NCBI GenBank assembly: GCA_022361395.1
Contig: JAKSAX010000424.1
Span: 1-37,731 of the forward strand
Length of the DNA stretch: 37,731 nucleotides
DNA from: Desulfobacterales bacterium
GTDB lineage: Bacteria > Desulfobacterota > Desulfobacteria > Desulfobacterales > Desulfobacteraceae
Direction of reading: 5' to 3'
In this document: positions 244 to 37,404 of the stretch, piece by piece
Position numbering within the stretch: position 1 is the stretch's first letter
Layout: the number at the start of each line of letters is the position of its first letter
The notes under the pieces: generated by a model
Databases searched by the model: none
The model's input: the letters and a program-made list of their open reading frames with translations, nothing else
Told to the model about the DNA's origin: nothing
Made by a program: the position numbers and the translations under genes

Positions 244-390
244 CAGGCTCAACGCATTTAACCTTTCAGACCCAATGATTCCAATAGGTTACCTTTGTAC
301 AGGCAACCCCAGACAAAACCTGGATAAGGCATAAGTGTCCAAATCCTTTGGAAATTTGGAACCGTGCCAAGTTTATGGACGATTGCCCCG
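244..390 (-). repeat. MITE-like dispersed element, copy 1 (oldest-looking)
   Basis: Read on the minus strand, this 147-bp block starts CGGGGCAATCG and ends GTTGAGCCTG. It aligns along its whole length with the element at 19010-19154 and, apart from a missing internal piece, with 15372-15481. Shared blocks include TTGGCACGG, TTATGCCTTATCC, GCCTGTACA and GAATCATTGGGTCTGAAAG. The ends differ by one base each from CAGGG...CCCTG, and the flanking 9-mers (CAGCCGGCA and GCCTGTAGC) do not match, so any target duplication has decayed. A 66-codon open frame overlaps it on the minus strand, but it is not kept open in the other copies, so I treat the block as non-coding. Confidence 0.85.
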
Positions 391-15008: not shown

Positions 15009-15389
15009 ATGCCCAAAGTACTAATCATTGACGATGAAGCCTCCATCAGAATTATGCTGTCCACGCTGCTTGAAAAAAACGGTTACTCGATTGTTACAGC
15101 CGAAAACGGGGCCCAGGGATTTAACCTGTTTAAAACCCATCTTCCTGATCTGACCATTACCGACCTTATCATGCCTGAAAAAGAGGGCCTGGAATTAATC
15201 AGAGAGATCAAGACCCTGGATCCGGAGGCAAAAATAATAGCAATGTCCGGCGGCGGGACAGCCCAGCCTGACACCTATCTGAAACTGGCGGCAAGGTTCG
15301 GGGCCCAAAGAACGTTTTCCAAGCCCATTAACACGGAACGACTACTATCCTTTGTCCAAGAGGCGCTGGCCCAGGGCAATCGCATATAA
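15009..15389 (+). CDS. Single-domain response regulator, C-terminus supplied by a MITE
   Basis: A 126-residue receiver with D8/D9, phospho-acceptor D52 in LTITDLIMP, S80 in IAMSGGG and the lysine in FSKPINTERL. The last five residues (QGNRI) and the stop codon lie inside the inserted element that begins at 15372. Removing the element and one flanking repeat restores GAG GCG CTG GCC TAA, so the ancestral protein probably ended EALA. The core fold is unaffected. The gene was probably a close neighbour of the DUF342 gene before the insertion. GGAG lies seven bases upstream of the ATG. Confidence 0.9.
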   Translation: MPKVLIIDDEASIRIMLSTLLEKNGYSIVTAENGAQGFNLFKTHLPDLTITDLIMPEKEGLELIREIKTLDPEAKIIAMSGGGTAQPDTYLKLAARFGAQRTFSKPINTERLLSFVQEALAQGNRI

Positions 15390-15481
15390 ACTTGGCACGG
15401 CTTTTAATTTTTAAAGGTTTTAAACATTTATGCGTTATCCGGATTTTCCCTGCGATTGCCTGTACAAATGCATTGACCCTG
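15372..15481 (+). repeat. MITE-like dispersed element, copy 2 (internally deleted)
   Basis: A 110-bp element starting CAGGGCAATCGCATATAAAC and ending CATTGACCCTG. Relative to the other copies it lacks about 35-40 bp after GCCTGTACA. The subterminal parts GGCAATCGCA and TGCGATTGCC are inverted, so the RNA would fold. GCGCTGGCC occurs directly before it (15363-15371) and again at 15481-15489, an 8-9 bp direct repeat consistent with target-site duplication. It lies between the receiver and the DUF342 gene. Confidence 0.88.
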
Positions 15482-15536
15482 CGCTGGCCTAAGGCAATTG
15501 ACATAAACCCTAAAATTGTTTACTTTTCCTGGTGAT

Positions 15537-18085: not shown

Positions 18086-18862
18086 TCACGGCCCTCTCCC
18101 ATAAAGGCCTATGGTCCGGTCAAAGAGGTCCTGGTATCCCCCTTCCTCTTTTATCCGTTTTAACATTCGGGCAATGAGCGGAACCTTATCTTTGTGTTTT
18201 TCGTTGAGATACAGGTACATTGATTTTACGGCCAGGGGCGGATCACACTCATGGATGCCTTTAAACTTCCCGGTCTGTAAAATGTACTGCCCGGCATACC
18301 GCTCATAAAGGGCGATATCAATGCGGTTTAAATCCATTAAGGCAAACAATTGCCCGGGGTGGGCAACGGTGACGACCTCCGGGAAATTTACCAGGTTTTT
18401 TTCATAAATTTTCCATCCGATAATCATACCGATCCGCCTGGAACGGATCTCAGCAAAGGAGACCCCGGTGATTTTTTCCGGCTGCGAAAACGCTACAAAA
18501 GAATAGTCAAGCAGTTTTTCCGGCACCTGGACAATGTTGCCATACCTCTCTGACAACCCGCCTATCCGGGGCAGTTCCCCGTCACTCTCCCCGGTATTTA
18601 CATTGATCATTGCACGCTCCGCCGGCAGGCGGACAATTTCAAAGGGGATATCCAGACGTGTAAATACCTCTTTTATGAGAAGATCAAAAAAACCGGTTTG
18701 AGATTTCGTAGAAAAAGGGGGCTTAATGGATGTATTTATTTTTAAGCGGGTTTCAGGGTGAACCGGCCGGACAAAACCGATACAAAGAACAATAACAAAA
18801 ATATAAAATCGAGTTTTAACCGTCCGGCCAAAATACATGAGCGTTCCTGTTATCTTTATCAT
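18086..18862 (-). CDS. Second orphan family-3 solute-binding protein
   Basis: A 258-residue exported protein. The signal segment is FYIFVIVLCIGFVRPVHPE, preceded by a longer basic N-terminus. The mature part has INTSIKPPFSTKSQTGFFDLL, EVFTRLDIPFEIVRLPAERAM, GESDGELPRI and IALYERYAGQYIL, matching family-3 binding proteins. No transporter gene is adjacent; the hybrid kinase at 19344 is divergent from it. Convergent with the DUF342 gene with a 41-bp gap. The first 18 residues may be extra: an internal ATG at residue 9 is possible. Confidence 0.82.
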   Translation of the reverse strand: MIKITGTLMYFGRTVKTRFYIFVIVLCIGFVRPVHPETRLKINTSIKPPFSTKSQTGFFDLLIKEVFTRLDIPFEIVRLPAERAMINVNTGESDGELPRIGGLSERYGNIVQVPEKLLDYSFVAFSQPEKITGVSFAEIRSRRIGMIIGWKIYEKNLVNFPEVVTVAHPGQLFALMDLNRIDIALYERYAGQYILQTGKFKGIHECDPPLAVKSMYLYLNEKHKDKVPLIARMLKRIKEEGGYQDLFDRTIGLYGRGP

Positions 18863-19009
18863 TTTCCTAAATAATTAATCACGGTTTGAACCGGTATCCC
18901 AGTTATCGCATGGGAAATTCATGCCTCCAACCATCCATTTACCGTGGAAAATGAGAACTAATTGCATATCAGTATTTGAAATAGGTGTAAATATTAAAGA
19001 TCATTCAGC
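18863..19009. other. Divergent intergenic region, left part
   Basis: Part of the 481-bp gap between the solute-binding protein and the hybrid kinase. AT-rich, without a gene. It ends with TCATTCAGC (19001-19009), the left copy of the direct repeat that flanks the MITE-like element. No firm promoter was assigned. Confidence 0.5.
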
Positions 19010-19163
19010 CAGGGCAATCGCATTAAAATTGGCACGGTTTTTAATTTTTAAAGGTTTTGTGCACCTATGCCTTATCCGGATTTTGTCTGCGATTGCCTGT
19101 ACAGAAGTGACTTATTAGAATCATTGGGTCTGAAAGTTATATGCGTTAACCCTGTCATTCAGC
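19001..19163. repeat. 9-bp target-site duplication around element copy 3
   Basis: TCATTCAGC occurs at 19001-19009 and again at 19155-19163, immediately outside the CAGGG and CCCTG ends of the element. Perfect 9-bp direct repeats flush with both ends are the mark of transposition. Confidence 0.85.
19010..19154 (+). mobile_element. MITE-like element, copy 3, probably mobilised by an ISAs1-type transposase
   Basis: A 145-bp element with ends CAGGG and CCCTG. The termini form imperfect inverted repeats of about 21 bp: CAGGGCAATCGCATTAAAATT on the left against, on the reverse strand of the right end, CAGGGTTAACGCATATAACTT, given here in pieces of one shared pattern. It has no coding capacity and perfect 9-bp flanking direct repeats. 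From memory, ISAs1-family ends begin CAGGG and make 8-10 bp duplications; no such transposase is in the window. It sits between divergent genes and may alter their expression. Confidence 0.88.
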
Positions 19164-19343
19164 AACAGAGAATTTAATGGTTCCATTTGGATTATTTTGT
19201 TGTCAGAACACGTCAAATTGGTTACATAGACAGTTCTGCTTAAACTCTCTTTCTTATAGTTAAGATTGCAGACTATTGCATGAGATGAAAAATAACGGAC
19301 CCTTTAAATCCATGAAAACCTGCGTCTTAAAAGGCACAAAACC
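19155..19343. other. Upstream region of the hybrid kinase
   Basis: After the second TCATTCAGC the sequence is AT-rich and has no gene. A tiny 11-codon frame (19312-19347) overlaps the kinase start and is probably meaningless. No convincing promoter motif was found. Confidence 0.4.
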
Positions 19344-21893
19344 ATGAAGACAGAACATCTGGAAAACGGGAGTATCCGAAAAACCCTTAACCTTCAAATC
19401 GGATTGGTGGTGCTCAGTATCGGCATCACTGTGGGTATCCTGTTTCTTGTTTTCTCCTTTCGCCTGGAAAAGAATGACTTTCAGAACAGTATCACACTTC
19501 AGACAAAGCACCTTTCAGATACATTCACCCAGCAGCTATGGCTGTTTGATCTCAAGACAACCCAGCAGTTATGTGATCTTGCGGTGGATTCTCCGGGTAT
19601 CATCGGCCTGCGTTTATCCGACCAGAATAAAACCCCCCTTGTTGAAAGCGGCAGTTTCCTGAAAGACTCAGCCACCCGGATAGAAGAGGCGCTGCATTAT
19701 AAAGACGGTACCCTGGTCGGCTATATAGAAATCGCATTTATCAACACGGCCTGGAAAAAACACGGGTTAGTCATCATCCTTGTGGGCTGCTGCATGATGC
19801 TGTTCATCATTGCAGCCAGCTTTATGCTGATTTCATCTCTCCTGAAGCGCCACCTGGTGGTTCCCCTGGATAATCTTCAGAAAGACATGCTCTCCCTCAC
19901 CTCAGGTGAGTTTAAACGGTCAGAGCTGACCGGCCAGAAAACGGAAATCCAGAATATTATTGATAAATTCAACCTGATGGCCTCTGCCCTGGCAAGCCGG
20001 GAAAAATTAAAACAAAAAGCGGAAACAGCACTGGAAAAAAGCCAGCAGGAACTTTTAAGCATATTCCGCATCGCCCCCACCGGCATAGGCGTGGTAAAAG
20101 ACAGGGTATTTTACACCGTTAATGAAAAACTATGCGGCATGACAGGGTATTCACAAGAGGAACTTCTTGGGAAAAATGCCCGGATGCTGTACCCGACTGA
20201 TGAAGACTTTGACCATGTGGGAACGGAAAAATACAGGCAGATCCGGGAAAAGGGGACAGGCACGGTGGAAACGCGGTTCAAACGAAAAGACGGAAAAATA
20301 CTCCACATACTGATGAGTTCCACCCCCCTCAACCCCAATGACCTGGCCAGCGGGGTCACGTTCACGGCCCTGGACATTACAAAGCGGAAGAACGCGGAAA
20401 ATGCCGTGCGTGAAAGTGAAGAAAAGTACCGGTCCATTATGGATTCAATGGATGATGCCGCGTATATATGCTCGCCTGAGTACCGGATTGAATATATGAA
20501 CCCGTCAATGGAAAAAATGATCGGTCATGACGGGGTCGGCCAATGCTGTTATGAGACGATTTTCGGGACAGATGAAATATGCCCGGATTGTGTCTTTGAC
20601 CAGGTGAAGCAGGGAAGGATCCTGAAAAAGGAATTATTCAACAAAAAGAACAACCGGACCTATCATACCTCCAATTCCCCCATTACCCACCCGGACGCCT
20701 CGGTCTCAATGTTGACCGTGTTCAGGGATATCACTGATATCAAACAGATGGAGGGCATTGTTCAGCAGGCCCAGAAGATGGAAGCCATCGGGACCCTTGC
20801 CGGCGGGATTGCCCATGATTTCAACAACATCCTCTTTCCCATTATAGGTTTTTCGGAAATGCTTCTGGATGACATTCCCGACGATGACCAGTCCAGGGCA
20901 AGTATCAAGAATATTCACAAGGGGGCACTCAGGGCCAAGGAGCTTGTCCAGCAGATTCTGACGTTTTCACGTCAGGAGGACAATGAGGTGCGGCTGATGA
21001 AGATCCAGCCGATTCTCAAAGAGGCGCTGAAAATGATAAGGTCAACCGTTCCCTCCACAATAGATATCCGCCAGGATATTGATCCGGGATGCGATCCGGT
21101 AAAAGCGGATCCCACGCAGATTCACCAGATCATCATGAACCTGACAACCAATGCCTATCATTCCATGGAGGCAGACGGCGGTTCCATGGACGTGACCCTG
21201 AAACAGGTTGAACTTAAAAAGCAGGACCTGGTCAATCCGGAAATGGAAGCAGGATCCTATGCCTGCCTGACGGTCAGGGATACCGGGGTGGGAATGAGTA
21301 AGGCCCTGACTGAAAAGATATTTGACCCGTTTTTCACGACTAAGAAAAAAGGAAAAGGCACCGGAATGGGGTTATCCGTTGTCCACGGTATCGTCACCGG
21401 AATGGGAGGCGAGATTCAGATACGCACCAAACCGGGAAAAGGCAGTGAGTTCATCCTTTATTTTCCCATTGATAAAAATGCAATGAACACCAGTGAAATA
21501 AAGCCGGTAGAACCCATTCAGGGCGGTACTGAAAGAATTCTCCTTGTTGACGATGAAAAAAATATTGTTGAAATGGAAAAACTGGCCCTGGAACGCCTGG
21601 GGTATCATGTCACCTCCCACACAAACAGCATTCAGGCCCTTGAAACATACCGTGCACACCCTGAGAATTTTGACCTGGTGATAACGGATTTTGCCATGCC
21701 GAAACTGCCCGGAGACAAACTATCCGTGGAATTGAAAAAGATAACCCCTGACATCCCCGTGTTGCTCTGTACCGGTTTTAGCGAAAACATATCCCAGGAG
21801 AAAGCGGAAAAACTGGGCATTAAAGGCTTCCTTCTGAAACCGGTTGTGGTAAAAACGCTTTCAAAAAAGATACGCGAAGTCCTGGACGGTTAA
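19344..21893 (+). CDS. Membrane hybrid sensor histidine kinase (HAMP-PAS-PAS-HisKA-HATPase-REC)
   Basis: An 849-residue inner-membrane sensor. Membrane helix 1 is near residues 17-37, a periplasmic domain of about 100 residues follows, and helix 2 is near 140-165. A HAMP-like linker (HLVVPLDNLQKDMLSLTSGE) leads to PAS domains near 235-350 and 358-475. The phosphorylated histidine is H491 in GGIAHDFNN. The ATP-binding part shows NLTTNAYHSM, DTGVGMS and GKGTGMGLSVVHGIV. A receiver domain starts near 731 with D782 in VITDFAMP as acceptor. It could therefore pass phosphate to a separate phosphotransfer protein. The partner is not evident. AAAAGG lies about nine bases before the ATG. Confidence 0.93.
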   Translation: MKTEHLENGSIRKTLNLQIGLVVLSIGITVGILFLVFSFRLEKNDFQNSITLQTKHLSDTFTQQLWLFDLKTTQQLCDLAVDSPGIIGLRLSDQNKTPLVESGSFLKDSATRIEEALHYKDGTLVGYIEIAFINTAWKKHGLVIILVGCCMMLFIIAASFMLISSLLKRHLVVPLDNLQKDMLSLTSGEFKRSELTGQKTEIQNIIDKFNLMASALASREKLKQKAETALEKSQQELLSIFRIAPTGIGVVKDRVFYTVNEKLCGMTGYSQEELLGKNARMLYPTDEDFDHVGTEKYRQIREKGTGTVETRFKRKDGKILHILMSSTPLNPNDLASGVTFTALDITKRKNAENAVRESEEKYRSIMDSMDDAAYICSPEYRIEYMNPSMEKMIGHDGVGQCCYETIFGTDEICPDCVFDQVKQGRILKKELFNKKNNRTYHTSNSPITHPDASVSMLTVFRDITDIKQMEGIVQQAQKMEAIGTLAGGIAHDFNNILFPIIGFSEMLLDDIPDDDQSRASIKNIHKGALRAKELVQQILTFSRQEDNEVRLMKIQPILKEALKMIRSTVPSTIDIRQDIDPGCDPVKADPTQIHQIIMNLTTNAYHSMEADGGSMDVTLKQVELKKQDLVNPEMEAGSYACLTVRDTGVGMSKALTEKIFDPFFTTKKKGKGTGMGLSVVHGIVTGMGGEIQIRTKPGKGSEFILYFPIDKNAMNTSEIKPVEPIQGGTERILLVDDEKNIVEMEKLALERLGYHVTSHTNSIQALETYRAHPENFDLVITDFAMPKLPGDKLSVELKKITPDIPVLLCTGFSENISQEKAEKLGIKGFLLKPVVVKTLSKKIREVLDG

Positions 21894-35202: not shown

Positions 35203-35227
35203 CCATCAGTGCAGGGAGTAGTACAAT
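35196..35227 (+). promoter_or_regulatory. Candidate promoter of the adenosyltransferase leader
   Basis: TTGACA at 35196-35201 and TACAAT at 35222-35227 are 20 bases apart, a wide spacing; TAGTAC at 17 bases is a weaker alternative. The riboswitch begins about ten bases later. Confidence 0.4.
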
Positions 35228-35232
35228 AAGTG

Positions 35233-35408
35233 TCCAGGTGCGTGTAAAAGCGCGACAGCAGCCGTTATGGCTGCCCAAGGGAATCCCGTGAAAATCGGGA
35301 ACGGGCCCGCCGCTGTGATCGGAGACGAACGCTGCTTAAAACCACTGGCTGACAGGCCGGGAAGGTGCAGTTGTAAGGATGACCCGAGAGTCAGAAGACC
35401 TGCCTGGG
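35233..35408 (+). ncRNA. Cobalamin riboswitch 1
   Basis: Conserved core elements appear in order: the P1 arm CCAGG (35234), AAGGGAATCCCGTGAAAATC, GGGCCCGCCGCTGTGATCGG, CCACTGGCTGACAGGCCGGG, and GAGTCAGAAGACCTGCCTGG closing P1. This is the classic B12-element. It is followed by a CCCCTG/CAGGGG stem (35420-35440) and then a strong terminator, so cobalamin binding should stop transcription into the adenosyltransferase gene. Confidence 0.95.
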
Positions 35409-35468
35409 AAAACAGATTACCCCTGCGCGGATAACAGGGGAGTTAATGATCTTGGAATATAAAGGGAT

Positions 35469-37178: not shown

Positions 37179-37237
37179 ATATCCCTTTCTTCTCCCAGAT
37201 ATGATATTGTCCGCACCTTGTCCGGAGAATGCGAACG

Positions 37238-37394
37238 ATTTACCAGGCAGGTCTTCTGACTTACGGATCATCCTTGTGCTGCGCCTTCCCGTTAATAACA
37301 GTGGCAGAATGCAGCGCTTGTCCCCGATTACAGCGGCGGGCCCGTTTCCGATTCCAACGGAATTCCCTATTCAGCCTTTCGGCACCAGGTAAAT
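37238..37394 (-). ncRNA. Cobalamin riboswitch 2
   Basis: Read on the minus strand, the P1 arm ATTTACC (37388-37394) pairs with GGTAAAT (37238-37244). Between them are the B12-element blocks GGTGCCGAAAGG, AATAGGGAATTCCG, GGGCCCGCCGCTGTAATCGG, GCCACTG, and AAGTCAGAAGACCTGCC. A terminator follows 60 bases later, so cobalamin should shut off cbiK. Confidence 0.95.
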
Positions 37395-37404
37395 TTGCTC
37401 TTCC

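Follow-up and report, generated by a model that had tools for sequence, protein, structure and literature searches.

A many-copy MITE family with ISAs1-type ends in a draft genome of the Desulfobacterales

Insertion sequences (IS) of the ISAs1 family generate target duplications of 8-10 bp. Type I MITEs of bacteria are thought to be mobilized by IS possessing the same terminal inverted repeats, according to a paper that employs the terms type I and type II (PMC3542288). The element described here lies within a stretch of 37,731 nucleotides (the window) and shares with type I MITEs its short length, lack of genes, high copy number, tip similarity to a resident IS, and target duplications, but it constitutes a sequence family of its own, its tips are imperfect, and one of them recurs internally. 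It resembles ISAs1-family IS (NF033564; the element of its own genome, L046, and that of a Desulfobacula MAG, L103) in the CAGGG/CCCTG tips and in the 9-10 bp duplications seen in relatives, whereas it lacks a transposase and aligns at the tips only. Elements of about 150 bp in sister species are alike in tips and length and, in one case (G003, locus L081), match the first 39 bp of the MITE at 88%; their interiors are unlike that of the MITE. In the literature covered, which lay outside most subscription journals, we noticed no earlier description of an ISAs1-linked MITE from these bacteria.

The element and its copies in the window

The features of the window are as follows.

244..388, - strand: decayed full-length MITE copy, inverted, 82% identical
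15364-15371 and 15482-15489, both sides: perfect 8-bp duplication CGCTGGCC of the shortened copy (sequence reading)
15372..15481, + strand: shortened MITE copy, 110 bp (sequence reading)
19001..19009, strand not applicable: target duplication TCATTCAGC, 9 bp, left copy (sequence reading)
19010..19154, + strand: full-length MITE, 145 bp, with ISAs1-type ends CAGGG...CCCTG (ORF listing, alignment, genome copies)
19013..19022, + strand: GGCAATCGCA, a portion of the left tip of the MITE (inverted-repeat search)
19088..19097, - strand: the left-tip motif again, internal and perfectly inverted, reading TGCGATTGCC on the + strand (inverted-repeat search)
19155..19163, strand not applicable: target duplication TCATTCAGC, 9 bp, right copy (sequence reading)

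The perfect 9-bp repeat directly abuts the element on both sides (CAGGG from 19010, CCCTG to 19154), exactly as the first-pass annotation had it in both coordinates and repeat. None of the ORFs of at least 100 aa listed for the window overlaps these 145 bp, which agrees with the earlier description of a short MITE without transposase. Longer imperfect inverted repeats had also been described at the ends; the tips of the consensus are indeed alike at 15 of 20 positions, but among perfect inverted repeats the longest one reported, of 10 nt, joins the left tip (19013-19022) to the internal site (19088-19097) and not to the right end. The internal copy may be a transposase site or the relic of an older tip, both of which would fit. 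Between 18800 and 19400, promoter-like sites number two (1.8 expected), one lying within the MITE (19093-19121), and no terminator-like site is present; an internal promoter or terminator was rejected on these counts.

Both further copies claimed for the window are real, although the bounds of one shrink from 244-390 to 244-388, those of the other (15372-15481) being unchanged. The response-regulator ORF at 15009-15389 terminates within the shortened copy, its last residues being QGNRI. Among the three regions of relatives fetched for this site, that of G011 only held the response-regulator gene; the homologue (57.9% identical, and too divergent to define the insertion site) occurs in the same setting without a MITE copy, ends differently, and is followed by 250 bases in which no copy was seen. 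Comparison of the flanks of the 244-388 copy revealed no acceptable target duplication. This decayed copy is repeated on contig C433 of the same genome (G000) at C433:31-175; positions 1-418 of the window and of C433, both at contig ends and both holding the decayed MITE, are 98.3% identical in inverted orientation, and the duplicate segment is either a strain variant or a duplication.

Copy number, target duplications and insertion sites

The suggestion that the family might be present many times in the genome is borne out. A first similarity search, in which 40 of 70 candidates were scored, returned matches to the MITE in 40 of 40; a 24-base core, allowing up to three mismatches, was found at 55 places, with none for the reversed-pattern control. 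A consensus search confined to the fetched loci identified 61 distinct places, of which 46 are complete copies with flanks and 15 are partial, some of the latter being short tips only. In a few cases a single insertion appears on two contigs (C78/C501; 244-388 and C433:31-175; C77/C92). The assembly is a draft in 611 contigs, with a listed contamination of 8.89%. We estimate the copy number at about 50 or above, possibly more. Divergence from the consensus is approximately 9% per column among the 38 copies aligned out of 43 rows (shortened and partial copies were dropped), and the spread of the MITE was therefore not one recent burst. On contig C287 (L192), two copies stand in tandem, in the same direction and approximately 10 bp apart (ATTATTGCCC).

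An exact flush duplication of 8-10 bp borders 22 of the 46 complete copies versus 2 of 2070 mispaired left and right flanks, and the flush duplications are thus not due to chance; the two control matches presumably come from C78 and C501, which have one insertion site in common. Flanking duplications were what the first-pass annotation had proposed looking for in further copies. With a register slack of 4, exact duplications of at least 8 bp rise to 29/46 (control, 8/2070); lowering the minimum to 7 bp and tolerating one mismatch gives 41/46, a figure that stands without a control. At 45 sites (C78 was left out) the longest exact flush repeat measures 10 bp at 18, 9 bp at 3, and less than 7 bp at 24. 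The usual duplication length is accordingly 10 bp (18/21 exact cases), the 9 bp of the window being a minority form, which refines the 9 bp of the first-pass annotation. The 10-bp targets favor C at their final two positions (10/18 and 12/18). The 10 bases that close the left flank of the copy at C386:20928-21070 also open the right flank of the copy at C119:150-299, and the C119 copy's own two flanks do not pair, as if the two had recombined or been misassembled.

The MITE is strongly under-represented in coding sequence: both flanks are open on one strand at 4 of 36 sites, as against 64.6% for control positions taken from these loci (n = 841; 36 of the 46 complete copies had the 240 bp of flank needed on each side; C78 was dropped). 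No exact empty site was found when 18086-19900 was compared with 18 congeners, scoring at most 17 candidates per genome; only two left-tip matches emerged. The duplicated segments among the fetched loci (C78/C501, C272/C433, C77/C92) all carry the element, that of C92 being cut by the contig end.

Relation to ISAs1 elements and to sister species

The host genome possesses one full-length ISAs1-family transposase, on contig C447 (NF033564, 444.7 bits, cut-off 70; domains PF13808 and PF01609), and two fragments besides.

L046:95 (CAGGG) to 1586 (CCCTG), contig C447: the genome's own ISAs1 element (sequence reading)

The right end of the MITE consensus matches this IS at 20/22 bases, and its score of 34 is higher than any that 100 shuffles reached (at most 29). 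On the other strand the score, 24, falls inside the shuffle range. The left tip of the IS (CAGGGTTATCGCATATAGAA) agrees with that of the MITE at 16/20, so that the MITE and the resident IS have tips in common. The left end of the MITE aligns with the Desulfobacula MAG element (L103) at 18/19 (score 33 versus 27 in 100 shuffles), and L104 scored 28 versus 27, one point over the shuffles. Among the eight IS elements compared on both strands, the own element and L103 stand clearly above all shuffles and L104 marginally so, and the remaining five stay within theirs. Tip positions account for 15 of these 16 best alignments. The earlier expectation of a matching full-length IS is thereby upheld for the tips but not beyond them: the alignment spans no more than about 19-23 terminal bases, and nothing further stood out; a visible deletion derivative of an IS was rejected on this ground.

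No matching duplication was found beside the own full-length IS, and its flanks may therefore have been rearranged, decayed or misassembled. At L046:1-95 the IS adjoins, across ATTATTGGCC, a MITE copy that is almost the same in sequence as the first of the C287 pair. Both L103 and L104 exhibit 10-bp duplications at their CAGGG...CCCTG tips, and together with two Clostridium loci they account for the 4 positive cases in the 15 of 40 ISAs1 loci that were tried. For the ISAs1 loci of G014, G015 and G016, duplications occur in 9/13 (eight of 10 bp, one of 9 bp); the remaining four, all of G014, show an internal pair only, which is not a tip duplication. The mostly 10-bp duplications of the MITE are congruent with the 9-10 bp of the relatives' IS. 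Among named-source matches, a listing from which records of the own genome were possibly excluded, the closest long relatives of the own transposase come from MAGs labeled Desulfobacteraceae, Desulfobacula or merely Proteobacteria, at 79-82% identity in the best segment. G014, a single-contig genome of the same genus, has 50 ISAs1 transposase family matches, 15 with an equal best score, perhaps a recent IS expansion.

Because of the resident ISAs1 transposase, the right-end match to the own IS, and the like tips and 9-10 bp duplications in relatives, we assign the element to a non-autonomous ISAs1-type MITE family, with a probability of roughly 0.93; the ISAs1 link made in the first-pass annotation is in that respect retained. 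As far as can be judged from sequence, the element was very probably moved in trans, by the resident enzyme. The ISAs1 DDE transposase would bind the tips of the MITE in trans and cut the target at staggered positions 8-10 bp apart upon insertion, host repair would convert these into duplications, and copies breaking genes would be lost afterwards, leaving mostly intergenic ones.

Across 59 genomes, its own plus 58 relatives, with up to 14 candidates scored in each, the element was found in its own genome only, the first 39 bp being common to G003 at 88% and the first 36 bp to G001 at 86%. Order-wide, among 389 sampled genomes that included its own, the core was likewise confined to the own genome apart from one match each in G022 and G032, with three mismatches and within a long coding frame; these are at chance level, since the reversed-pattern control also yielded single matches, in G040 and in G177. 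Viral contigs gave no exact core match, and plasmid and phage records no match to the MITE. The G003 element, used as a query, finds at least partial matches in 8 of 19 congeneric genomes (counting the own one), with one to three matches per sister genome. Elements of about 150 bp with ISAs1-like tips are present in G003 (L081, L089), G012 (L082, L088, L091) and G002 (L083), and the two G003 copies have 10-bp duplications, judged by eye.

These sister elements bear on how the MITE was assembled. It is possible, if rather doubtful, that an older symmetrical MITE of about 92 bp gained a second right end and spread as a unit: the internal TGCGATTGCCTG has the look expected of a symmetrical right tip, and the symmetrical G003 relative, with its 88% match to the MITE over the first 39 bp, ends in TGCGATTGCCCTG and has a 10-bp duplication. 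Yet the general consensus search disclosed no stand-alone copy of about 92 bp with duplications among the 61 places, the G003 interior is otherwise unlike the MITE, and the right part beyond about 23 bp aligns with no IS compared. The further step, that capture of a second ISAs1 right end produced a two-module MITE with three tip-like transposase sites and so may have enabled some 50 or more copies versus few in sister species, we consider a little less probable again.

Departing from the ISAs1-type reading altogether, the MITE might be moved by a transposase of another family, its tips resembling ISAs1 by chance. The shortness of the stretch alignable with any IS compared and the lack of a duplication at the own IS would accommodate this, but tips and duplication length are the same as those of the relatives' ISAs1 elements (ISAs1 being the family that was searched), and such a coincidence appears very improbable.

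Conservation, folding and significance

The best-conserved 24 bases (consensus 79-102) overlap the internal left-tip copy, a degree of conservation reached by 4/5000 column shuffles, which ignore shared ancestry; private changes, found in single copies, are spread fairly evenly along the element. In the 28 of 38 aligned copies used for the pair count, 95.6% of cells pair between GGCAATCGCA and 19088-19097. Changes on both sides occur in 1 of the 10 pairs, a number equalled in 109/500 shuffles, and compensating change is therefore not in evidence; 6 of the 10 pairs are invariant, hence uninformative on pairing. The forward strand folds like its shuffles (z = -0.98), and the reverse strand somewhat better (z = -2.58, 5/200 shuffles as good). 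No Rfam family reached its gathering score at 19010-19154. Elsewhere in the window there are two cobalamin riboswitches (RF00174), at 35219-35421 (+ strand, 102.4 bits) and 37229-37404 (- strand, 111.5 bits).

A hairpin or RNA function was rejected on the pair counts and the forward fold. The broader notion of a palindromic, non-transposed repeat (REP/BIME or ERIC-like) or small structured RNA, spread for a host function, could draw on the 10-bp perfect inverted repeat, the conserved central block and the reverse-strand fold, but it is largely refuted by the flush target duplications at many copies, the mark of transposition, as well as by the pair counts, the forward fold, the even private changes and the lack of an Rfam family, and is the least probable of the readings considered.

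The non-autonomous ISAs1-type MITE is an ordinary kind of genomic parasite in a new host. With it, a high-copy MITE family linked to ISAs1 joins the other short, similarly tipped elements of several sister species in the genus, raising the question of why the MITE multiplied in one lineage. In annotation, it accounts for recurring intergenic sequence, the altered gene end at the 15372 copy, and probably some contig breaks.
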